DNA from: Planifilum fulgidum | GTDB lineage: Bacteria > Bacillota > Bacilli > Thermoactinomycetales > DSM-44946 | DNA: 64,000 bases | Direction: 5' to 3' | Assembly: GCF_900113175.1 (NCBI RefSeq) | Contig: NZ_FOOK01000006.1 | Coordinates: 1 to 64,000, forward strand | Part shown: positions 19,157-43,103 of the stretch, piece by piece | Position numbering within the stretch: position 1 is the first letter of the stretch | Layout of the letters: every line of letters starts with the position of its first letter | The notes under the pieces: generated by a model | Databases searched by the model: none | The model's input: the letters and a program-made list of their open reading frames with translations, nothing else | Told to the model about the DNA's origin: nothing | Made by a program: the position numbers and the translations under genes

Positions 19157-21280
19157 TCAGTTCAAATTTTCAGGTCCTGATATAAAGCGATTAGGCACAA
19201 TTCCCTTGATCAAAATTTCCTTATCACGCCTTGTGTTTTCAATAGCATTCTCCAGTTTTATTATACTTTCTATCAGTTTATCATACCTTCTTTTTGAATA
19301 ATTCTCTCTTTGAATCAATTGATTCAGTTCCTGTTTCTTCATTTCTAAGCTTTGTTTTAGTTCCTGAATAATCCGATCTTGTCCAATAATTTCTGCTTGT
19401 ACTTCTCCTTTAGAAATCGCTTCTTGAAGTTTATCCAAATCAATTTGAATTCGTTGCTTTCCATATCGTTTTGATATTCCTTGTTCAGACGTCGTCGATA
19501 TATAGGGGGAATCATGTTTATTGATGTTAAGGATATGTTCTGTAATACTTGCCCGACCATTTGGATTAGCCGGAATGAGATTTCCCATTTCATCTAGATG
19601 TGCCTTGGGAATTTCCGTTTTTCCGCTTTGACTGGGACGAGTCTTACTGTAAAAATCATTATCTGCACGAAAAACACTATTGTAATGCCTTTTCGCAAAC
19701 CGGATCGTCTTCTTGATCGCCGCGCCCCCGAAGCGGTGGAGGGCGGCGCTCAATAGCGTCGATGCCGCCACCTGCAGCCGCTGTGCCGGGGTAAGCCGGG
19801 ACCATTGGTTCCACCAGGTCCGGGTCTCCGCCAGGGGATTGCGGAGAAAACGGGCGATGGCGTGGCCGTTTTCGGCGATGCTGATCAGGGTGGTGAGGAT
19901 GGTGAAAGCCAGTTGGAGTCCTCCGAACAGCCACCAGCCGAGGGCGAGGGCCCCGAGAAAGATCAGCCCCTGCTCCCAGCCGTCCAGGCCCTCCCACCAG
20001 TTGGCCAGGGAATCGAACAGGCAGGCGAAACAGGCCGTCTCCGCCGATGCGGCCGCTCCGGCAATCACAACCGTCAGGACCAGTCCCAGGAGAGCGAAGG
20101 TTCCGATGATCGCCAGCATCTGCTCCCGGTGCCGGTCCAGCCCCCTTGACAATGCTTCTTCCCGTTTCCGCTTATATCCTTTGTCGAAGACCGTTTCGGC
20201 TCCCAGCAGGGAAAAGGCCAGCTGTTTCCGGTCCTGGACAAACAACAGGCTCTGCGCCAAGAGTCGCGGGTCCGCCAAAAATGCCCAAAACAGGTGACGA
20301 AGCTCCCCGAAGGGATGAATCACCCGTTCTCCCGGCAACCGGGGCAACCGGTCGCCGATCCGGTTCATGTCCCGATAATCCAAAAAGATCCCCAGGGCCA
20401 GCAGGATCAGCAAAGCCGGCTCGGCATAATATCCGCTGCCCAAGGCATCGTGGAGCTTGTTGATCCATTCGGGCAGATCTCCTCCGCTGTCGTTCCACAC
20501 GGCGTGATCCAAGACCGCCCAGAACAGGAGAAACAGGGGGACGAGGAGAAAGGCGCGCCCGCCCTTGCGCCGCCACCGGATTCCCAAACCGACGCCGAGG
20601 GCGGTGAGGGCCGTGATGACGGCGTGACCGGACATCATCTCGGTGGCGAAATAGCTGGACTCGAAATACCCCGGAAACAGGTCGAAAAATTCCCAGTGAA
20701 TCACCTGGCCGTCCCAGATGCTGAAGCCGTAGCCCCAGATTTTTCCGGAAGCCAGCCGGCGGGCCACCTCCTCCATCATTTGAAACCCACCCCCGACGGC
20801 CGCCCCGATCAGAGCGTAATCGCTCAGGCTGAGGGCGGTGGCCCGTCGGGAAAGCCACAGATAAACGAACAGGGGAAGCAGCTTGAAGATTTCCTCGACA
20901 ATCGGCGTCACCACGGCGATGCTCCACCAATCGGAGGGCTCCCCGCCGAAGAGGAGGTGAATGATGGCCACAAACCCCTGGGTGATAAAGGGGATTACCC
21001 AAGCCCCCACCAGAAAAAACGCGGAATAGGTTTTCCAGGTGAACGTCTTGCTTCGGGCCAGGATCCAAAACTGCCACAACAGATAAAGGCTCCACAAAAA
21101 TTGGACGAAAATCTTGCGCGCGTCCTCAAAAAAGAAGAGGCTCAAGAGAAAGACAAGCAGAGAAACCATGGAAAAGACCGTATAAGCGCGAATCCATCCC
21201 GGATGAGAAGCTTTCCACTGCAGCCACTTTTCCTGAAGCCGGTCCAATATTTCTCTCAGCCGCAGGCGAAAATTTTGCAT
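19157..21280 (-). CDS. PrsW-type membrane protease fused to a C-terminal toxin cassette
   Basis: 707 residues; ATG 21280 follows CCAGGAGGAGC. Residues 30-300 form a multi-pass PrsW/CAAX-like intramembrane metalloprotease: PIVEEIFKLLPL with Glu129-Glu130 and Lys133, FQMMEEVARR with Glu170-171, His219 in MMSGHAVITAL and His259 in FWAVLDHAVWN. More helices follow near 390-480 (LLGLVLTVVIAGAAASAETACFACLF). After a GC-rich linker (HRFGGAAIKKTIRFAKRHYNS) the DNA turns AT-rich at residue ~532 and the last 176 residues form a separate module: SPYISTTSEQG, an IDLDKL strand, a coiled coil (QSLEMKKQELNQLI) and RDKEILIKGIVPNRFI. This order resembles ADP-ribosyltransferase-like toxin tips; that is inference. 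Either the tip is released by self-cleavage or PrsW guides export. Confidence 0.75.
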   Translation of the reverse strand: MQNFRLRLREILDRLQEKWLQWKASHPGWIRAYTVFSMVSLLVFLLSLFFFEDARKIFVQFLWSLYLLWQFWILARSKTFTWKTYSAFFLVGAWVIPFITQGFVAIIHLLFGGEPSDWWSIAVVTPIVEEIFKLLPLFVYLWLSRRATALSLSDYALIGAAVGGGFQMMEEVARRLASGKIWGYGFSIWDGQVIHWEFFDLFPGYFESSYFATEMMSGHAVITALTALGVGLGIRWRRKGGRAFLLVPLFLLFWAVLDHAVWNDSGGDLPEWINKLHDALGSGYYAEPALLILLALGIFLDYRDMNRIGDRLPRLPGERVIHPFGELRHLFWAFLADPRLLAQSLLFVQDRKQLAFSLLGAETVFDKGYKRKREEALSRGLDRHREQMLAIIGTFALLGLVLTVVIAGAAASAETACFACLFDSLANWWEGLDGWEQGLIFLGALALGWWLFGGLQLAFTILTTLISIAENGHAIARFLRNPLAETRTWWNQWSRLTPAQRLQVAASTLLSAALHRFGGAAIKKTIRFAKRHYNSVFRADNDFYSKTRPSQSGKTEIPKAHLDEMGNLIPANPNGRASITEHILNINKHDSPYISTTSEQGISKRYGKQRIQIDLDKLQEAISKGEVQAEIIGQDRIIQELKQSLEMKKQELNQLIQRENYSKRRYDKLIESIIKLENAIENTRRDKEILIKGIVPNRFISGPENLN

Positions 21281-21281
21281 T

Positions 21282-21416
21282 TTATGCTCCTCCTGGGTTA
21301 AGAAGGGGGTAATCCATATTAAAAACATCATAATCGGGAATTGGAACGTCCTCAATAAGCAAATGGTTGTATTTAACAAGATCGGGGAGAAACTCCTCAC
21401 GCAAAAAGAACTCCAT
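21282..21416 (-). CDS. Small acidic ORF coupled to the PrsW toxin gene
   Basis: 44 codons, MEFFLREEFLPDLVKY, ending NMDYPLLNPGGA; the stop codon lies directly before the ATG of the PrsW gene and its last codons contain that gene's ribosome site, so translation would be coupled. The composition looks protein-like (acidic, hydrophobic, few rare residues). An in-frame TAG lies two codons before the ATG, and no good ribosome site precedes it, so it may instead be the stump of a longer gene. A GAACTCC/GGAGTTC inverted repeat spans its start. Not recognised. Confidence 0.4.
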   Translation of the reverse strand: MEFFLREEFLPDLVKYNHLLIEDVPIPDYDVFNMDYPLLNPGGA

Positions 21417-21540
21417 CGGCTAGTGTCGACGGAGTTCCGCACCAAAGCTTGACAAGACACTGGATTTTATCCCCGTCCTCTCCCACAGGATGGTGACCGG
21501 ATTTCGCTCCTTCGGAAGGAGATATGAATGCCGGAAACAA

Positions 21541-25609: not shown

Positions 25610-26008
25610 TCACGACCAGACCGTCATCCGCTCCTGCAGGTTGCTGGTGTGCAATTCCAGCTGGGTTCCGTCGGGATCCAAAAAGTTGATGGAGCGGCCG
25701 ACGCCCCGGCGCACGGGCCCCCGAACGATGCGAACCCCGGACTCCTCCAGCCGGCGGGCCGCCTCATCGAAGTCCTCCTCATCGATGGAGAAGGCGACGT
25801 GATCGACGCCGAAGCCGGAATTCCCGCCTTGATCCCCGGCCTGCGCCTTCTTCTCCACCAGGGCGACCCAGGCCGTTCCCCATTCCAGGTAGGCATCGGT
25901 CCTTCCCCGGTGAACCAGCTTCATCCCGAGCAGATCCCGGTAAAAACCCAGGGATTTTTCCAGATCCGACACGCGAATCGTCACGTGATTGAAACCTTTC
26001 ACCTTCAC
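25610..26008 (-). CDS. VOC-family metalloenzyme, FosB-like
   Basis: A 132-residue glyoxalase-fold protein. GTG 26008 follows GGGAGGAT. Two beta-alpha-beta-beta-beta modules are visible, with the metal ligands expected of the FosA/FosB group: His in FNHVTIRVSDLEKSLGFYRDLLG, His in VDHVAFSID and Glu in TQLELHTSNLQERM. Length, the FLDPDGTQLELH stretch and the LQERM tail resemble the bacillithiol transferase FosB, which inactivates fosfomycin, but generic VOC proteins share these features. It lies beside a DUF3891 gene on the same strand. Confidence 0.75.
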   Translation of the reverse strand: MKVKGFNHVTIRVSDLEKSLGFYRDLLGMKLVHRGRTDAYLEWGTAWVALVEKKAQAGDQGGNSGFGVDHVAFSIDEEDFDEAARRLEESGVRIVRGPVRRGVGRSINFLDPDGTQLELHTSNLQERMTVWS

Positions 26009-26030
26009 CTGAGATCCTCCCGGCACAATT

Positions 26031-26723
26031 TCAGCAAACCACGTCGATGGACAGCTGTCCCTCTTCCTCCGGCTCCCTCGCCGCATTGACGACCCGATAG
26101 GGAATCGTGACGGTGAAGGGCTCCCGGAAGGGGTTTGGAGAGAAGCGCAACTGCCGGGGGCTTTCCCAGACCGGAAGCAGCCTCCGGCCGAAATAATCCA
26201 TGCCCTCCCGGAACCAGGGAAAGCGGTTTTGTCCCGGCTCGTTCAGGCAGACAAAGAGGGAAAGGTGGTCGCAGAACTTGAGGAGGCGAAGATCCCGATT
26301 CAATCCGTCCCGCTCCTCGCTCTTCATCCCCGCCTTCAACCGCTCCTGCCTCTCCAGCTCCTCCTCCCGGAAACGGACCGCCGCCGGGTCCGAAACCCCT
26401 TCGAAAAAGGAGGCGTAATGCATGCTGCACAGACAGCCGGCATACGCATCCTCCGCCGCCACCCGGTCGATCCCGGCTTTATAGGCGGGCAATTTGGGCC
26501 CGAGGGGATAGTCCATGAAGGAATAGGGACGATCCTCCTCCTCGTTCCACAACACCTCCCGGTCCAGAAGCCGCCAACCCACATCATGCATGGCAATGGC
26601 ATAGACCGCGGAGGGGTGAAACCGGCCGATCTCTTTCAGTTTAAGCGCAAAATCGGCGGAAACCAGGGCATGGTCGTGCTGGCGAAACAGAACAAACCGA
26701 TCCCCCTGCTTCCGAACAATCAC
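26031..26723 (-). CDS. DUF3891-family protein
   Basis: About 230 residues. GTG 26723 follows GGGGGAT and gives the usual family start VIVRKQGDRFVLFRQHDHALVSADFA. Paired His/Asp residues (QHDHA, AMHDVGW, KFCDHLSLFVCLNEPG) suggest an HD-like metal-binding helical protein, as proposed for this family. Biochemical function unknown. It precedes the VOC gene by 22 bases on the same strand, so the two are probably co-transcribed. Confidence 0.75.
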   Translation of the reverse strand: MIVRKQGDRFVLFRQHDHALVSADFALKLKEIGRFHPSAVYAIAMHDVGWRLLDREVLWNEEEDRPYSFMDYPLGPKLPAYKAGIDRVAAEDAYAGCLCSMHYASFFEGVSDPAAVRFREEELERQERLKAGMKSEERDGLNRDLRLLKFCDHLSLFVCLNEPGQNRFPWFREGMDYFGRRLLPVWESPRQLRFSPNPFREPFTVTIPYRVVNAAREPEEEGQLSIDVVC

Positions 26724-26894
26724 TGCGGATCCCCCCGCATTCCCGTTATAATGACAAATCCACAAGCGGAGCCCATAGGGGGAACCTCCCCTTACGCCAC
26801 GGAGAAATGCACGTCGCCGGATCCTGCCGGCGATCGCATCCCCGGATCCCCGCTCCTCCCCTTCACCGGACCAATCTACTCCTTAAGGGAGTGG

Positions 26895-27350
26895 TCACAG
26901 CCCCAGGCCCTCCAACTGACGGACATGTCTCCACACATGGACGATGGCGTGTTCCAGCATCTGCTCCACCATATAGATTTCCCGCTCGTTCCAGGAGGCG
27001 GGAAAAGCCTTCCCCAAGTCGTCGTCATAAACGCCGGCGGTCGCCTCCCGGCAATAGGGCAGGCTGAGGGAGAGCACCCTTTCCCACTCCCTTGGGGAAG
27101 AAAGGCGGCTGAGCGCTTCCCGCGCCAGGGGCGGAGAGACGTTCTCCCCCAGTTCCAGCTTCTCCCTCACCCACTGGAAATAAGTAAACATGCTCTCGAC
27201 GATATGTACCAACAAATTGCGGACCGTCCCGAAATCCGTCACCGGCCGATCCAATGCATCCTCCGGCCAGCGGTTCATCATGGTCATCAGATGGTGCAGC
27301 GCCCGCTCGTGTTCCTCTACCAGGGCTTGAACGGCGTTCCTTCCGGACAC
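26895..27350 (-). CDS. DinB-family protein
   Basis: About 150 residues with the four-helix DinB architecture: RNLLVHIVESMFTYFQWVREK in the first half and the histidine-bearing MVEQMLEHAIVHVWRHVRQ near the end. The start is uncertain: GTG 27350 has GAAAGG nine bases upstream, while ATG 27359 is inside that spacing. Similar proteins are metal-dependent thiol transferases or damage-inducible proteins without known activity. It lies downstream of the three small membrane proteins but after a 240-base gap. Confidence 0.75.
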   Translation of the reverse strand: MSGRNAVQALVEEHERALHHLMTMMNRWPEDALDRPVTDFGTVRNLLVHIVESMFTYFQWVREKLELGENVSPPLAREALSRLSSPREWERVLSLSLPYCREATAGVYDDDLGKAFPASWNEREIYMVEQMLEHAIVHVWRHVRQLEGLGL

Positions 27351-27608
27351 GGAATTCATCCTTTCAATTTGGTTTGGGCAATACAACCTTCGCCAAAGGA
27401 AAATCCCTTTCCTTTTCCGCCCTTGCGTGATGCGGAGGAAGGCCCGCCGGACATTTAACGGCCTTTGCTTTGCCCGACATCACTTCCGAAGAAAAACTCC
27501 CACGGCAGACGGGAGAGCGGGCGCCGCCCGGAAGATGCCTCCGGTTCCGCCTCCCGGATCGCTTGAAAGGGGCCCGGGCAACAGGATTCCGACTTTCGGA
27601 ACGACTCC

Positions 27609-28067
27609 CTAAAACCATTGGTTCATGACGCCGAACAGCAAAAAGAGGGATGCCACAGGAAGACCGGAAATCAGACCGAAACCCATGATCATCATGGAAC
27701 TCATGAACCTTTTCACGTCCTCGGAAGCTTGGGGATCCTTGGTGATCTGCGAAGTGGTGAAATAAAGGGACAGAAAGGCAAACAAAATCGTCAGGAGAAC
27801 CACCGCCAAAGGCAGGGTCACATCGGCGAACTCAACCGTCCTCAAGACGACGATGTGATACATGCCGTATAAGAGGATAGACATCGACACCAATTCGACA
27901 AGGAGGAATCGGATGACAAAACTTGAATACGCCCGCTGCCTCCGGGCCTGAAAATCCTCTTCCGAGGAGCTTTCGGAAAGATGAGCAACCACTTGTCTGT
28001 AAACGACAATTCCCCCGATCACCGCAATCACCGACGCGGCCACCAGGGACCATATCGGATTGAACAA
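27609..28067 (-). CDS. Small four-helix membrane protein, paralogue 3 of 3
   Basis: A 152-residue protein with four predicted membrane helices: FNPIWSLVAASVIAVIGGIVVY, a charged segment (HLSESSSEEDFQARRQRAYSSF), LVELVSMSILLYGMYHIVV, LPLAVVLLTILFAFLSLYF, and LISGLPVASLFLLFGV. It is clearly homologous to the gene directly upstream (same WSLV...GG...Y start and SSSEE.F.ARRQ loop). The pattern of two helical hairpins recalls V/F-type ATPase c-subunit-like proteins, but no essential acid is visible. Function unknown; part of the ABC export operon by position. Confidence 0.65.
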   Translation of the reverse strand: MFNPIWSLVAASVIAVIGGIVVYRQVVAHLSESSSEEDFQARRQRAYSSFVIRFLLVELVSMSILLYGMYHIVVLRTVEFADVTLPLAVVLLTILFAFLSLYFTTSQITKDPQASEDVKRFMSSMMIMGFGLISGLPVASLFLLFGVMNQWF

Positions 28068-28110
28068 AGGGGTTTTCTCCTTTCTCTCAAGATCGTTTCC
28101 GCAGGATTGC

Positions 28111-28575
28111 TCAAACCTGGCCGGTGAAAATCAATATCAGCATTCCAAGGGAGGCGATGGCTACCGCGATGATCAATGAACTTCCCACGGCATACAAGCC
28201 TTTGGTTTGATTTTTCATCTGCTCCGTGGTGCGGGGATCCCGCAATATCGGCAACACCATGAGATAGGGGAATAAGTTACCTAAAATGATGATTAAAATC
28301 ACCGCCGCCAGGAACGGAGTCACATCCGTCACGCTTGTGGAGGCGCTTCCCTCTGAGAGAATGAAGTACATGCCATACAGTAGAAAAAGAATTGGAATCG
28401 CCTGGGTCGAAACGTGCCGAATCAAGTACCGATAATATCCCTGCTGTCTCCTCGCGGAAAACTCCTCTTCGGAGGAACTCTCCTCAAGGTGGGAGACAAA
28501 AAGCTTGTAGGGAATCAGTCCCCCGATCATCCCGAGCGCCGATGCGATCACCAGAGACCAAATCGGGTCCAGCAC
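28111..28575 (-). CDS. Small four-helix membrane protein, paralogue 2 of 3
   Basis: A 154-residue paralogue, MLDPIWSLVIASALGMIGGL, loop LEESSSEEEFSARRQQGYYRY, then three hydrophobic segments. GGAGGGGGT precedes the start. The conserved loop should lie in the cytosol. It follows the third paralogue after a gap of about 250 bases holding a hairpin, so it may also have its own promoter. Function unknown. Confidence 0.65.
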   Translation of the reverse strand: MLDPIWSLVIASALGMIGGLIPYKLFVSHLEESSSEEEFSARRQQGYYRYLIRHVSTQAIPILFLLYGMYFILSEGSASTSVTDVTPFLAAVILIIILGNLFPYLMVLPILRDPRTTEQMKNQTKGLYAVGSSLIIAVAIASLGMLILIFTGQV

Positions 28576-28609
28576 CGCTTTACCCCCTCCTTTCCCCGAG
28601 AATTTAGAC

Positions 28610-28638
28610 GGCCCAAGAGGATCGCCGTCTTGGGCCGA
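28610..28638 (-). terminator. Hairpin between two of the small membrane-protein genes
   Basis: Ten-bp perfect stem CGGCCCAAGA / TCTTGGGCCG with a 9-base loop; the T run on the minus side is poor, so it may be a partial terminator that sets expression levels in the operon. Confidence 0.4.
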
Positions 28639-28822
28639 ACAAAGCTTTTAAATAAAATATACCTGATTTGACAGAGAAACAGAAGATTTTCCTTAAAAAA
28701 TGCCGAAATGGATCCCGACGGGAAAAAGACGGATCGTCAACATGCGGACCCTTGCAAAGAGAAACGGTAAAAAATCAGGCATCCGTCTTGTAATACTCCA
28801 TTTTCTTCTTGCGCCGGACAAA

Positions 28823-29275
28823 TCAATAGTGCTTCTCGATGATCGCGAGAAATATGCCCATGGAAATAATCGGAACTGCATTGACCGCCATAGCCGCAGC
28901 GATCATCGACTGTATCATATCTTTCTTAACCCTGGCGGAAGAACGGGGATCATGAAGAACGCCGGCGGTGATGAAATAGATGGACAATAAAGCGACAAGG
29001 ATCATCAAAAAAACGATCACCATCAGCAGAGGCACGTTTCCGGGAACGGCCTTTCCCGAAGAGATCCGGACGGCAGCAATTCCCATTAGTCCGGCCATCG
29101 TCCCTCCAATGACGGCGTATTTCAAGGCAAATTGCCGGAATTCCCGGTTGCTTCGGGACAGAAATTCCTTTTCATCGGATATCCCAGCCAGCTTGGAAAT
29201 GTATTGTTTATAGCCGATCACTCCCCCAACCATGCTGAAGAGCGACGGAATCAGCAAGAGGCATTCCTCAAGCAC
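28823..29275 (-). CDS. Small four-helix membrane protein, paralogue 1 of 3
   Basis: A 150-residue member of the same local family, more diverged: LLLIPSLFSMVGGVIGYKQYI, loop SDEKEFLSRSNREFRQF, then AVIGGTMAGLMGIAAV, LMVIVFLMILVALLSIYF and AVNAVPIISMGIFLAI. It starts 13 bases after the ABC permease stop, so it belongs to that operon. Function unknown; a role as small accessory subunits of the export module is inference. Confidence 0.65.
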   Translation of the reverse strand: MLEECLLLIPSLFSMVGGVIGYKQYISKLAGISDEKEFLSRSNREFRQFALKYAVIGGTMAGLMGIAAVRISSGKAVPGNVPLLMVIVFLMILVALLSIYFITAGVLHDPRSSARVKKDMIQSMIAAAMAVNAVPIISMGIFLAIIEKHY

Positions 29276-29288
29276 GGCTTTCCCCCTT

Positions 29289-30179
29289 TCATCCGGGATC
29301 TTTCGGGCCCTTTTTCAAAGAACTCCTTGAGGAGAAGAAACTCCATTTCTTCCAACGGGCAGGGGAAAGAAAATAAGAGGCGGCGACGAGCAAGCCAACG
29401 GTTAAAAGGGCATAGGCCGAAACATACATCCAATAGATGTCGATCCGCCACTGGAGACCCAATCCCATATGTTCCCCGAAAAAAACGGCCAACTGCGTGA
29501 TCACGGGATGCAGGCCGGCCAAAAGTTCAAAGGGTAGCGGGAGATGGTGAGGAGAGTCCCACAAAAACCGATCGTACAACAGGGCGATGAAAAACATCAA
29601 CACGGGAATGCCGACCAAAATCATCGCCACCGCGACGTAGGCGGTCACCATCGCCGGCCCCGTCCGCCGGATCTGGGTGGAAACAAAGACGCCGAGCGCC
29701 CCCAAGAAGCAGACCGTGATCAGCAGATGAACAAAGGTATAAAGGATCTCCCCCGGGGAAACGCCTCCGAACAGAAAAACGGAGGCGTAAAGAGGAAGAG
29801 AGGCGACGATCAGCAGGATCACAAAGGCTATTGAGGCCAACCACTTGCTGAAGATGATCCCGCTGGATGAAAGGGGCAGCGTCAACAGCACGGAAAGCGT
29901 CTGCCGCTCCCGCTCCCCGCTGATCGTCCCGGCGGTCAAGCCGGGAACGACGAAGGCGAGGATCATCAGATGGATCAGCGCCAGCCCCATGAACAGAAAC
30001 CGGTTTTCTTCCGAATTAAGAAACTGTTCCTTTTCCATCAAAAACATATAGGTGAAGATCAAAAACCCCATGATGCCCAGATAAAGGAACACAATCCAGG
30101 GGGTCCGGGAAAATCGCATCCGCTGGCGAACTTCCTTGTTCAGCACCGGATCATCCCACACCTGCGGCCATCGGTTCAT
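29289..30179 (-). CDS. ABC-2 type permease
   Basis: Integral membrane subunit of an ABC transporter, 296 aa and about six helices. The long first cytoplasmic segment NRWPQVWDDPVLNKEVRQRMRF leads into the first helix; FVVPGLTAGTISGERERQTLSVLLTLPLS is the conserved ABC-2 coupling segment. The ATG overlaps the stop of the ATPase gene by four bases. Together they may export or extract something with the large exported protein made first in this operon. Confidence 0.85.
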   Translation of the reverse strand: MNRWPQVWDDPVLNKEVRQRMRFSRTPWIVFLYLGIMGFLIFTYMFLMEKEQFLNSEENRFLFMGLALIHLMILAFVVPGLTAGTISGERERQTLSVLLTLPLSSSGIIFSKWLASIAFVILLIVASLPLYASVFLFGGVSPGEILYTFVHLLITVCFLGALGVFVSTQIRRTGPAMVTAYVAVAMILVGIPVLMFFIALLYDRFLWDSPHHLPLPFELLAGLHPVITQLAVFFGEHMGLGLQWRIDIYWMYVSAYALLTVGLLVAASYFLSPARWKKWSFFSSRSSLKKGPKDPG

Positions 30180-31111
30180 GGACCCTTTTCCTCCCCGTTT
30201 CCCGCGATTTTCAAAAAAACGTCCTCAATGTCTGTGGCGACTTCTTCAAATCGATACACGGAAATCCCTTCGGCGATCAGGCGGGACAAAATCTCCGCCT
30301 GGCGATGCTCGTCCCCCTCCATCCCCACCGTCAGCTTGCGCTCTTCCACGCGGAGGGAGGTGATCCCTTCTTCCTTTTCCAGCAATTTCACCGCCCGATC
30401 CGCATCCTCCAGCAGATGGATTTCCACGGTCCGGCCTCCCCGATAGCGGTCCATGATCTCCTGCACATTCCCGGCGGCCACCAGTCTCCCCCGGTCCATC
30501 ACGCCGATGGCATCGCAGAAATCGGCCAGTTCCGGCAGGATGTGTGAACTGATGAAAATCGTCTTGCCCATCGACTTCAATTCCCGCAGCACGGACCGAA
30601 ACTCGATCCGGGCACGGGGATCCAGTCCGGATGCCGGTTCGTCCAGGATGAGGAGCTTCGGATCATGAACCAGACAGCGGGCCAATCCCAACCGCTGCTT
30701 CATCCCCCGGGAAAGGTGATCCACATAGGCGTCCCGTTTGTCCGACAGGCGGACCAGTTCCAACAGCCTGGAGATCACTTCCCCCCGCCGGGGCGGCTCA
30801 ATTCCGTAACCAGCGGCGAAAAAGGCGAGATATTCCTCGGCGGTCAACCGGTCGTACACCCCGAAAAAATCGGGCATGTAACCGATTATGCGCCGCACCT
30901 CGTCGGGATGATCCGTCACATCCCATCCGTCGATCCAGGCCCTGCCTTCGCTCGGGGCGAGCAGCGTGGCCAAGATGGCCATGGTCGTCGACTTGCCGGC
31001 GCCGTTGGGACCGATAAACCCGTAGGCCGTTCCTTCAGCCACTTCAAGGTTGAGGGATTTGACCGCCTCCACATTCCCAAACCGTTTGGACAGATTCTCC
31101 GTTCGGATCAT
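30176..31111 (-). CDS. ABC transporter ATP-binding protein
   Basis: A 311-residue ATPase: Walker A GPNGAGKSTT near residue 39, Q-loop replaced by IGYMPDFFGVYDRLTAEEYL (YMPD, common in drug-type ABC-2 systems), signature LSRGMKQRLGLARCL, Walker B LLILDEPASGLD, switch His in SSHILPEL, then a ~80-residue C-terminal domain. ATG 31111 overlaps the upstream stop (ATGA), so translation of all three genes is coupled. Confidence 0.9.
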   Translation of the reverse strand: MIRTENLSKRFGNVEAVKSLNLEVAEGTAYGFIGPNGAGKSTTMAILATLLAPSEGRAWIDGWDVTDHPDEVRRIIGYMPDFFGVYDRLTAEEYLAFFAAGYGIEPPRRGEVISRLLELVRLSDKRDAYVDHLSRGMKQRLGLARCLVHDPKLLILDEPASGLDPRARIEFRSVLRELKSMGKTIFISSHILPELADFCDAIGVMDRGRLVAAGNVQEIMDRYRGGRTVEIHLLEDADRAVKLLEKEEGITSLRVEERKLTVGMEGDEHRQAEILSRLIAEGISVYRFEEVATDIEDVFLKIAGNGEEKGP

Positions 31112-33381
31112 CGCACCACCCGTCCTTCCACTTCCAGGAGAGGTCCTGCCCCGGGCCGGTCCGTCAGGATCACGATGCGATTGAACGGAGAGACAAAATG
31201 GGGCAGCTCGTCCGGAGACAGACGGGAAAGCCGTTTCGCCTCCACCCATCTTCCCCTGTTCCAGTCGTACACCTCCACATAACGCCGCTTTTCCGGGAAA
31301 ACATCGATCCGGAGCGGTTTCCAATCAGCCGGTGCAAAGGGAAGATCATAGGCGATCATCACCGGATTACTATGATCTTTGAGCGCCGAATCCTTCGTGG
31401 AGGAGAGCAAGCGATCTCCCTCCACATATTGGGAGGGAAGGGTGCCGCGGTTCCACAGGATCGTGTTTTCTTTTTTGACCGGTTCGATTTCGACGCGCCC
31501 CAACACCATCGAGAGGTGTTCCTCCTTCGTCTCCCGCCCCCGGATCCCGTAGGAGAAGATGGGCTCTTCCGTCCAGCCCGTCACACAGTATCCCGTCACA
31601 TGACTCTGCATCAGATCTTCCCTCGTCTGTTTCCATTGCTGCTTCATCCTCTGTTTCATCTGCTGTTTCAACTCCGGTTTCGAAAGGTCTTGGATCTCGC
31701 CTTGGGCATCCCGGGAAACATCCTCCGCCTTAAATGTCTTGGTCTCCCCGGGGGCGAGGGAACCGACCCGCCGCACGTCATCTCCCAGGACGAGACTCAC
31801 ATCCCGAAAAAAAAGGCGGGTTCCGTTTTTCACTTCCCAGTGCCACGTTCCGTCCCGAAACCTGGCGACGGCGCGGAGATCCCCACCCAGGGAAGCCGTC
31901 GATTCCGCAGACATCCCGCGCGGGGTCCAATAAGGCACATCCAAAAAGGTGACCGCCGACCGGCCGGATACGCCCGCCCCGAGGCGGTTTTCCCCCTGCT
32001 CCGGAAAAGGCCACAACCAGAGGTTCGATTTCCCGTCCAGCCGGTATGTTCCCGCCTCCTGGCTCCAAAATGCGGAAACGCCCCGAACCTCCGCTTCACC
32101 CGACGCTTTCGTCTCCACGTAGGCAAGGTTGTGGACCAGCACCTCGTCCCCCCTGAGGATCTTGCCATAGGCGTAAATCCCCAAGGTTGCGGCGATCCCC
32201 AGAGACGGAATGATCCACCATGCCCATTCCCGCCGGTTCAGCGTCTTGAGAATCCAAAAGAGAATCGGCCCCACCCCAAGCGCATACACCAAAAAAAGCG
32301 CCGCCATCGCGGAAAGACTGGGAAGTTCGAGATGCGGCATCTTCATCAGGGCCTTTTCCAGGGAAGCATTGCCGGAGCGCGGAACGCCCTCCAACCGAAA
32401 CGACCGTCCTTCCCCTCCGCCCAAAAACAGCATTTCCCGCCACAGCCGTTCGTTTCCGGACCATTCGGCCAAGGGAGAGGCCGTCAAATCATAGGCGGCG
32501 GATATCACCGCCCCCGCCCCGGCCGGACGCCGGGCCAGCAAGGGAAGATCCCCCGCGGAAATCACCGCCCGTCCCCCGTCCGCCAGCCGGACGCGGCCGA
32601 CGGTCAGGGGGGATTTTGGCTCGGGGACGTTTCCCCAGCGGCGGAAGGGCTTCAGATTCTTCAGCGTCGTCGTCCCCTCCCCCTTCACCGGGAGGATCGG
32701 CTCCAGCTCCCCGGAGGACGAAGCGGAGGAGGAACCCGCCACCACCAGCAGACCGCCCTTTTCCACCCAACGGCGAATCGCCCTTTGGCGGGACTTTCCG
32801 AGGGAACCGACATCGATGCCGTTGATCACCAACACATCCAAGCCGGACAAGCCCAGGTCCCTGTTCGGAATCTCCTCCGCCCTTAACCCTTCCACCCGGA
32901 TTTCGGAGTGCCCCGCCGACACCCCCAACCAACTTCTTAACCGGGAAGACAGCTCAGGTGAATCGCTCAACACGCCGATGAGCATCTCCGTGCCCGCAAC
33001 GGTTCCACCGAGCTTTTTCCGGACCGCCACTCCGCCTCCGGTGCGAAATTCGATCTCCGCCACCGGCAACGCCAATTCCCTGGACAACAAAAGGGTGACC
33101 TCCTTGGAGGTTCCCCCCGCCAGTTTCACCCGTTCCCCCGCAAACGAACGATTTCTCAAATGAAACGGTTTGACGATCAGCTCTCCCTCCACGTCGGAAC
33201 CGGAATTGGCGAGCCTGACCCGGACCGGCACCCATTCTCCTTTCATCACTCCGCCAAACCCCGGATCAACTTCCATTCTGATTTGCCCCGGCGACCCCTC
33301 CGCCACTCCCGGAAGACCCAGAAAGAAAGCGAACAGCACCAAAAGTCCCTTCCAAAAACGCGTCCTTGCCCGCTTGGTCAA
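31108..33381 (-). CDS. Large exported/membrane protein of an ABC module
   Basis: A 757-residue protein. TTG 33381 is chosen because GGGGAGGAG lies six bases upstream and a clean signal peptide follows (TKRARTRFWKGLLVLFAFFLGLPGVAEG). Residues ~30-130 look like a beta-sandwich (GEWVPVRVRLANSGSDVEGEL), ~150-215 a class I amidotransferase-like Rossmann domain (LDVLVINGIDVGSL...RWVEKGGLLVVAG). Two helices follow near residues 330-400 (LSAMAALFLVYALGVGPILFWIL and WWIIPSLGIAATLGIYAYG), then a long second extracytoplasmic region. Such proteins occur with ABC-2 modules, conceptually like GldG. Function unknown. Confidence 0.7.
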   Translation of the reverse strand: MTKRARTRFWKGLLVLFAFFLGLPGVAEGSPGQIRMEVDPGFGGVMKGEWVPVRVRLANSGSDVEGELIVKPFHLRNRSFAGERVKLAGGTSKEVTLLLSRELALPVAEIEFRTGGGVAVRKKLGGTVAGTEMLIGVLSDSPELSSRLRSWLGVSAGHSEIRVEGLRAEEIPNRDLGLSGLDVLVINGIDVGSLGKSRQRAIRRWVEKGGLLVVAGSSSASSSGELEPILPVKGEGTTTLKNLKPFRRWGNVPEPKSPLTVGRVRLADGGRAVISAGDLPLLARRPAGAGAVISAAYDLTASPLAEWSGNERLWREMLFLGGGEGRSFRLEGVPRSGNASLEKALMKMPHLELPSLSAMAALFLVYALGVGPILFWILKTLNRREWAWWIIPSLGIAATLGIYAYGKILRGDEVLVHNLAYVETKASGEAEVRGVSAFWSQEAGTYRLDGKSNLWLWPFPEQGENRLGAGVSGRSAVTFLDVPYWTPRGMSAESTASLGGDLRAVARFRDGTWHWEVKNGTRLFFRDVSLVLGDDVRRVGSLAPGETKTFKAEDVSRDAQGEIQDLSKPELKQQMKQRMKQQWKQTREDLMQSHVTGYCVTGWTEEPIFSYGIRGRETKEEHLSMVLGRVEIEPVKKENTILWNRGTLPSQYVEGDRLLSSTKDSALKDHSNPVMIAYDLPFAPADWKPLRIDVFPEKRRYVEVYDWNRGRWVEAKRLSRLSPDELPHFVSPFNRIVILTDRPGAGPLLEVEGRVVR

Positions 33382-41318: not shown

Positions 41319-43103
41319 TCACCGCCCGTCCGCGGCGGTTTTTCCGTCGCCCGGCCGGATCCACAATTTCCGGAAATCCGCCCAGCCGAAGGAATCGAAG
41401 GTCAGCCCCTGAAGATTCCGGGGATATTTGATCCGTTTGTACAGGTGGCACAGAAACAGCATCGTCAAATCGCGGTGAAGAAACCCCTCCACTTCATCGA
41501 TAATCCTCCTCCGCCCCTCGCCGGACGGTTCGCGGACAAACCGATCCGTCAGGCGAAGGGTGGCGTTCAGACGTTCCGGATCCAAAAAGCGGCGAAACAG
41601 GTTGGTGTTGCGAAAAAACATGAACCAGCTCGACTCAAAATCCGAATCGAAAACGTCCGCCATCAAAAACAGATCGGCCTTTTCCTCCAATTCTTTGCGG
41701 TACAGCCAGTCGATCGGCACCGGAACGGGCGAAATCCGCACCCCCACCGCCTGCGCCCGTCTCCGGATCCAGTCGGCAACCTCAGCTTTGGTCCCGCAAT
41801 TCCCCTCCGATTGGTCAAAATAGTACAGAGACAGCGTCTCCCCGGCGTAACGGCTCCCCTCCAACCACGAACGCGCCTCATCCAGGGAGGATGGCGAAAC
41901 CTCCGCCGACCGGCTCTTTTCCGGCAACATGCTGTCGGCAGGAAACCGGTCGTTTCCCCCCAGCTCTTTCACCATCCGCCTGCGGTCGCAGATCTCCCGC
42001 ATCGCCCGGCGAAAACGGATATCATGTTGCGGTCCGGGCCTGCGAAAATTGAAAACCAGCATCTCGCAGGCAAATTGTTCGAACAGCACTTCCCGCTCGC
42101 CGCCGCCTTCATCCTCCCCCGGCAACTGATACCGCGCTTCCCCCTTCTTCTCCCCCGGAACAAGCCAAAGCTCGATCCGATCCAAAAGCGGACGCTCCCG
42201 AAAATAACCGTCGAAGGCTTCAAACACCACCCGGCTGTCCGACAGCTCCCGGATCTGAAAGGGACCGGTCCCCACATGTCGCCGGGCAGACGCTTCGCGG
42301 GGACGGATCGATGTGTTGACGGTTCCGAGAAAACGGGGAAAAAAGGGCAAAGAATCCGTCAAACGGAACCTGATGGCGTGTTCGTCCATTACCTCGATTT
42401 CGGCAATGTAACGGGCCAGCCACGGCATCACGCTATTCGGCGCCTCCATCAATCGCCGGAAGGTGTGGCGGACATCCTCCGCCGACAGCAATCTCCCGTC
42501 GTGAAACCGGACCCCCTTTCGCAAATAAAAAGTCCATTCGGCATGAGCGGAATCCGATTCCCACGCGTGGGCCAGGTGAGGTCTTAGCAGACGCGTTTTT
42601 GCATCATAATGAACCAGGGTGTCATACACCTGGCGAACGAAGTGACACTCCGCCACCACCGACACGGCGGAAGGATCCAGGGTGGTCAGCTTACGGTAAA
42701 GGGGGATTTTCAGCACTTCCCTTCGCCGGTTGTCCGCCTGCTCCACCTGCAGCCCCAGCCGGACGTGGAGGCGCTCCCGGCACCGCTCCCACACCTCTTC
42801 CGGAAGTTCCCCACGGCGCAGGAACTCCATCGCATCATGGACCCGACCCTTTTCCAGCAACTCGGTAAAGTGGGAAACGGCCATCTCCTCCAGCCCCCGC
42901 TGAAAGATGAGAACCGACCGATTTCCCCGTCCGCTTCCGGGCATCCAGAGGATCCATTTTCGCTCCTCCATTTTTCGGATCAGATGCTTCACATTGCGTC
43001 GGGTGCAGCACAGCGTCTCCGCCAATTCCGCCACCGTGACGGGCATTTTTTCTTTTCCCGGATAAGCCGACCGCAATCTGATGTAGTGTTCCACCAAGTT
43101 CAC
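41319..43103 (-). CDS. SgrR-like transcriptional regulator with solute-binding domain
   Basis: 594 residues: an N-terminal SgrR-type winged helix (ELAETLCCTRRNVKHLIRKMEERKWI, then WMPGSGRGNRSVLIF), followed from residue ~150 by an SBP_bac_5 periplasmic-binding-type domain (LTTLDPSAVSVVAECHFVRQVYDTLVHYD, WTFYLRKGVRFHDGRLLSAEDVRHTF) without a signal peptide, so the sensor is cytosolic. In E. coli SgrR senses sugar-phosphate stress and lies near the sugar exporter setA. Here the gene is divergent, 109 bases away, from an MFS exporter, the same logic. Confidence 0.88.
   Translation of the reverse strand: MNLVEHYIRLRSAYPGKEKMPVTVAELAETLCCTRRNVKHLIRKMEERKWILWMPGSGRGNRSVLIFQRGLEEMAVSHFTELLEKGRVHDAMEFLRRGELPEEVWERCRERLHVRLGLQVEQADNRRREVLKIPLYRKLTTLDPSAVSVVAECHFVRQVYDTLVHYDAKTRLLRPHLAHAWESDSAHAEWTFYLRKGVRFHDGRLLSAEDVRHTFRRLMEAPNSVMPWLARYIAEIEVMDEHAIRFRLTDSLPFFPRFLGTVNTSIRPREASARRHVGTGPFQIRELSDSRVVFEAFDGYFRERPLLDRIELWLVPGEKKGEARYQLPGEDEGGGEREVLFEQFACEMLVFNFRRPGPQHDIRFRRAMREICDRRRMVKELGGNDRFPADSMLPEKSRSAEVSPSSLDEARSWLEGSRYAGETLSLYYFDQSEGNCGTKAEVADWIRRRAQAVGVRISPVPVPIDWLYRKELEEKADLFLMADVFDSDFESSWFMFFRNTNLFRRFLDPERLNATLRLTDRFVREPSGEGRRRIIDEVEGFLHRDLTMLFLCHLYKRIKYPRNLQGLTFDSFGWADFRKLWIRPGDGKTAADGR

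Follow-up and report, generated by a model that had tools for sequence, protein, structure and literature searches.

In the window, the whole 64,000-nucleotide stretch of Planifilum fulgidum DNA that we analysed, three genes of an ABC exporter are followed on the same strand by three genes for small four-helix membrane proteins. Do these six genes make up one system? The sequence-only reading had taken them for a single operon encoding an export system of a kind not described before, in which the small proteins might form a hetero-oligomeric ring or channel. It had placed all six genes correctly; all lie on the minus strand.

31108..33381, minus strand: Big, the exported subunit, 757 aa, TTG start
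30176..31111, minus strand: ABC ATPase of the DrrA/GldA type, 311 aa
29289..30179, minus strand: ABC-2 permease, GldF-like, 296 aa
28823..29275, minus strand: SmA, subunit-c-like protein with a double hairpin and Gly in place of the rotor carboxylate (from family profile match, alignment and tree)
28111..28575, minus strand: SmB, subunit-c-like protein with a double hairpin and Gln in place of the rotor carboxylate (from family profile match, alignment and tree)
27609..28067, minus strand: SmC, double-hairpin subunit-c-like protein, rotor Glu of helix 2 kept (from profile, alignment, tree and AlphaFold2 model)

The spacing of the genes divides the locus. Two 4-base ATGA overlaps, noticed before and present as described, join Big to the ATPase gene and the ATPase gene to that of the permease, and SmA starts 13 bp after the permease gene. 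The single operon proposed earlier thus stands for Big, the ATPase and the permease, with SmA close behind, but probably not for SmB and SmC, which are separated from each other by 43 bp and lie 247 bp beyond SmA. This gap has features of its own.

28576-28822, minus strand: intergenic spacer of 247 bp that separates SmA from SmB
28641..28694, minus strand: promoter-like block of about 50 bp, AT-rich, AGGAAAATCTTCTGTTTCTCTGTCAAAT...TATTTTATTTA (from the spacer alignment of G000, G001 and G002)
28610..28636, minus strand: 9-bp inverted repeat within the SmB leader, GGCCCAAGA...TCTTGGGCC, kept in three species in the same alignment

Because the gap holds a promoter-like block that is conserved in the three aligned species, the locus is probably transcribed as two units. 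The block was not among the sites listed by a promoter consensus scan. Rfam gave no match to the SmB leader, and a known RNA element was therefore ruled out there. Taken together, the conserved block and the inverted repeat suggest that SmB and SmC are under separate control. Elsewhere in the window, also on the minus strand, we observed an SgrR-like regulator (41319-43103; SgrR_N and SBP_bac_5 domains) and a 767-aa open reading frame (19157-21460) whose first third carries a PrsW-protease domain and whose long remainder is unassigned.

The domain matches of the ATPase and the permease agree with the identities given to them earlier. The ATPase matches the Pfam families ABC_tran (103 bits) and DrrA1-3_C (40 bits), as well as drrA (2e-76) and GldA (2e-63), and the permease matches ABC2_membrane_2 (55 bits, cut-off 27.2) and GldF (1e-7). 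Since the drrA and GldA scores are below the equivalog cut-offs, and that of GldF is also below its cut-off, the cassette is by these profiles GldA/GldF/GldG-like, and its proteins are not orthologues of the true gliding GldA and GldF. Big has, in this order, an N-terminal signal or transmembrane segment, an extracytoplasmic amidotransferase-like domain (DUF7408, 27.4 bits for a Pfam cut-off of 27), two central transmembrane helices (approximately residues 356-409) and a C-terminal beta domain. Its structural model is of moderate confidence (pLDDT 64, pTM 0.45) and was used for two purposes alone: to delimit the helices (356-380 and 384-409) and to search for the amidotransferase-like fold. 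The latter matched 3soz (E 7e-9) and 2gk3 (E 8e-8), two solved proteins with this fold, which supports the domain recognised by the sequence-only reading. We also considered Big as an active class I glutamine amidotransferase. Its sole cysteine, Cys599, is far outside the amidotransferase-like domain, which is left without a nucleophile, and this activity was therefore ruled out. Nor is Big a giant, as had been thought: 757 aa is an ordinary length for its subunit family (about 640-830 aa).

Families and gene order together put a DrrA/GldA-type ATPase, a GldF-like permease and an exported GldG-like subunit in one operon. Outside the genus the cassette is widespread, with homologues in 10 order genomes and at 13 named loci of Paenibacillus and Cohnella, and in most of these relatives the cassette is followed, in the same direction, by genes for a membrane protein of about 550 aa, a MoxR AAA+ ATPase, a DUF58 protein and a BatA/VWA protein. 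In the window, the MoxR-DUF58-BatA part does not adjoin the cassette, and the DUF58 genes of the genome are on other contigs. GldG-like proteins have been described in association with MoxR and vWA proteins (PMC5898192). The ABC cassette by itself is thus of a known kind, the GldG/MoxR type, and Big, the ATPase and the permease make up a GldA/GldF/GldG-like ABC-2 exporter cassette, presumably with an export or assembly function at the cell envelope. The membrane protein of about 550 aa, whose gene in most cassettes of other genera stands between those of the permease and MoxR (e.g., L046:6035-7756 and L033:14321-16021), has no Pfam family.

A single dedicated exporter, with SmA, SmB and SmC forming a hetero-oligomeric ring or channel together with the ABC permease, has two points in its favour: the linkage of the genes in all three genomes of the genus (3/3), maintained at a Big identity of 59-69%, and the mere 13 bp between the permease gene and SmA. 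The pattern outside the genus argues against it. None of the 23 cassettes found there has a small-protein gene nearby, and the lone small genes have neighbours that vary from genome to genome, with no cassette beside them. The two are also apart at the level of genomes: among the 39 other genomes of the order, the ABC subunit is present in 10, the small proteins in 7 and both in 0, and when all 42 genomes are counted (Big in 13, a true member of the small-protein family in 10) the overlap is restricted to the three genomes of the genus. This co-occurrence count alone is only suggestive, since the probability of no overlap is 0.10 if the two are independent, and it indicates that they are not tied rather than that they avoid each other; the argument is carried by the neighbourhood data. 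The promoter-like block in front of SmB-SmC also speaks against a single system. In one genome of another family of the order (G005, locus L050) the site is empty: DUF3891 is encoded within 164 bp after the permease gene, and in the window it is encoded beyond the small genes. The VOC and DUF3891 genes of the window (25610-27386, minus strand) have counterparts that adjoin the cassette in G005 (L050:3476-4695), with DUF3891 directly after the permease gene.

The sequence-only reading had itself named a gene-neighbourhood survey as the check on its proposal, and outside the genus the survey found each of the two, small proteins and ABC genes, in the absence of the other. A general role of the small proteins as subunits of ABC exporters is thereby rejected. 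The proposal of an undescribed six-gene system also fails by the criterion set for it in advance: the two parts have no overlap outside the genus, even at the genome level in the order. We consider a dedicated export system improbable. The position of the small genes beside the cassette is a peculiarity of one genus, and the linkage in 3/3 genomes leaves room for a functional tie between small proteins and exporter within it.

What, then, are the small proteins? As had been recognised, SmA, SmB and SmC are homologous, with 39% identity between SmB and SmC and 25% between SmA and either of them. The charged loop SSSEE.F.ARRQ, previously attributed to all three, is common to SmB and SmC and absent from SmA, which has ISDEKEFLSRSNRE instead. 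For SmC, the AlphaFold2 model predicts the four helices (pLDDT 89, pTM 0.81), and the charge balance of its loops gave no clear orientation. In the tree, the three proteins and their orthologues in the genus form one clade (support 100/98), and their multiplication therefore belongs to this lineage.

Direct searches of SmA, SmB and SmC against Pfam (including PF00137) and NCBIfam gave nothing significant. The family profile, searched over 399 genomes of the class, retrieved shorter relatives in other families (E 4e-25 to 1e-7), and these lead to subunit c of rotary ATPases. Two of them, L087 and L084 (matched by the profile at 1e-7 and 3e-12), pass the PF00137 (ATP-synt_C) cut-off with 27.6 and 25.6 bits versus 24, match subunit C in NCBIfam (7.5e-12 and 2.1e-8) and rank directly below the normal atpE in whole-genome PF00137 searches. 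The first hairpins of the shorter relatives resemble subunit c, e.g., IKEQPEQASKVQTNFFIGVAISEAIPLIL in L084. When the profile was built without L087 and L084, its top match in the PDB was still a subunit c (4cbj), with an E of 0.017 that is weak alone. Run over the phylum (398 genomes), the full profile gave 15 matches outside the window's genome, of which 14 were atpE, and the order-wide profile search matched the same atpE loci. Compared by hhalign with 29 subunit c sequences, hairpin 1 reached 95.5% with a score of 44 (shuffle maximum 19) and hairpin 2 reached 88% with a score of 32 (shuffle maximum 12).

One could suppose that this likeness is a convergence of hydrophobic helices and that the small proteins are an unrelated family of four-helix membrane proteins. 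The likeness is indeed centred on helices 2 and 4, PF00137 does not match the window proteins directly, and the fold search was unhelpful: with the SmC model as query, Foldseek found nothing but generic helical bundles, with no subunit c and no E below 0.3. Yet convergence would hardly explain that, across hundreds of complete genomes searched with the profile, atpE is almost the only membrane protein retrieved, that two members pass the curated PF00137 cut-off, that each hairpin separately exceeds all shuffles and that 15/18 members have a Glu where the alignment places the rotor carboxylate. We judge it very improbable. The weakest link is the window's genus: when its four sequences are used alone, hairpin 2 reaches only 54% in hhalign and hairpin 1 only 4%, and the place of the genus in the family rests on the profile matches and the tree, the connection to subunit c running through the relatives. 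On this evidence, the small proteins belong to a double-hairpin family homologous to rotary-ATPase subunit c, and it is this membership that is new here. In a search of open-licence papers, no orphan double-hairpin subunit c turned up for Bacilli, which is weak evidence of novelty.

The genes of the family outside the genus are lone and away from the atp operon, and each of the 16 carriers tested, like the window's genome, has a separate canonical atpE elsewhere. No relatives of the L084 protein were found in plasmid records. Several carriers of a lone c-like gene also encode proteins of about 150-176 aa with a weak PF00137 match restricted to the inner-helix part (positions 7-46), at G363:C3:203236, G059:C20:70164, G347:C18:37510, G004:C1:808055 and G017:C47:4488; these are possibly another c-like or glycine-zipper family.

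The rotor position of helix 2 is a Glu in 15/18 family members, the exceptions being G059 (Val), SmB (Gln) and SmA (Gly), whereas the equivalent position of helix 4 is never a Glu and once an Asp among the aligned members. The lone members and SmC thus have a fused double hairpin with the carboxylate in hairpin 1 only. The G059 protein (L027:2097-2564, from another family of the class) is a lone member with a loss comparable to those of SmA and SmB. The glycine motif GxGxGxG of the inner helix is found in 0/18 members of the family, versus 25/29 true subunit c sequences (same small-residue pattern). Most members have an enlarged first loop, and their two hairpins are strongly diverged from each other.

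In A. woodii and C. aceticum, subunit c1 shows this distribution too, with its carboxylate in hairpin 1 and that of hairpin 2 lost (PMC7911925). The small proteins could accordingly be minor four-helix subunits of the cell's own ATP synthase c ring, as c1 is in acetogens, altering its ion-to-ATP ratio or conductance, and the fused hairpins and single hairpin 1 carboxylate fit this. The remaining traits fit it poorly: the glycine motif is absent and the hairpins have diverged, the first loop is enlarged where ring and central stalk would be in contact, the genes are distant from the atp operon, and two of the three window copies are without the carboxylate, which is expected to stall rotation. 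Such a role seems highly unlikely to us. We file the small proteins as derived c-like proteins because they have a c1-like architecture but did not come out as subunit c in tests that define it, and they are probably not parts of the ATP synthase.

The explanation we favour, and regard as likely, is that two unrelated things meet at this locus: a GldG-like ABC cassette, and an orphan Bacilli family derived from subunit c. This family would have originated when two hairpins of rotary-ATPase subunit c were fused, and SmA, SmB and SmC would be a triplication of it specific to the genus. The small proteins probably assemble into a membrane oligomer of their own, made of c-like proteins and possibly a ring; the idea of a ring, already raised by the sequence-only reading, gains an unexpected basis in their homology to subunit c, which forms rings in rotary ATPases. 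Family members that carry the Glu would have an ion-binding site; in the genus SmC alone would be the ion-binding member of the oligomer, with SmA and SmB in structural roles, and the oligomer of the genus may be co-expressed with the ABC exporter or act on it.

A bolder proposal, which we hold to be rather unlikely, is that the orphan fused-hairpin paralogues of subunit c are stand-alone ion-binding rings or channels in the membranes of Bacilli, independent of any ATPase, and that in this genus a three-component hetero-oligomer, with one ion-binding and two carboxylate-free members, was recruited to a GldG-type ABC exporter. To our knowledge, subunit c is known only as part of rotary ATPases. 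If the proposal were true, a conserved, duplicated and unlinked c-like family that keeps the ion-binding Glu would be a rotor part working outside the motor. The locus also offers a natural series, with the Glu kept or replaced by Gln or Gly, in which the role of the carboxylate is testable. And a false lead is removed: the ABC operon is an ordinary cassette of the GldG/MoxR type, and the interesting part is the lone rotor-like family.

Comparison with known systems places both halves of the locus. The family shares with subunit c (PF00137, AtpE) homologous hairpins and, in most members, the Glu-x-x-Pro of the outer helix; it differs in having two fused hairpins, no GxGxGxG, an RQP loop that is not kept, a location outside the atp operon and, in SmA and SmB, no carboxylate. 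V-type subunit c has four helices and one carboxylate, in its last hairpin; the ratio of one carboxylate per four helices is the same here, but the carboxylate is in the first hairpin. Closest in architecture is c1 of the hybrid-rotor Na+ F-ATP synthases of Acetobacterium woodii and Clostridium aceticum (PMC7911925), with its duplicated hairpin, four helices and carboxylate in hairpin 1 only. Subunit c1 is encoded in the atp operon beside atpE2/atpE3, sits in the c ring and has hairpins that are 58% identical in C. aceticum (PMC7911925), whereas the family described here is unlinked to the atp operon and has strongly diverged hairpins without the glycine motif. The ABC cassette, in turn, resembles GldA/GldF/GldG and the GldG-like/MoxR/vWA modules (PMC5898192) in its GldA/DrrA-type ATPase, its GldF-like permease and its large exported amidotransferase/flavodoxin-like protein, and differs in that the archaeal GldG-like protein has one C-terminal transmembrane helix (PMC5898192) and Big has two central ones.
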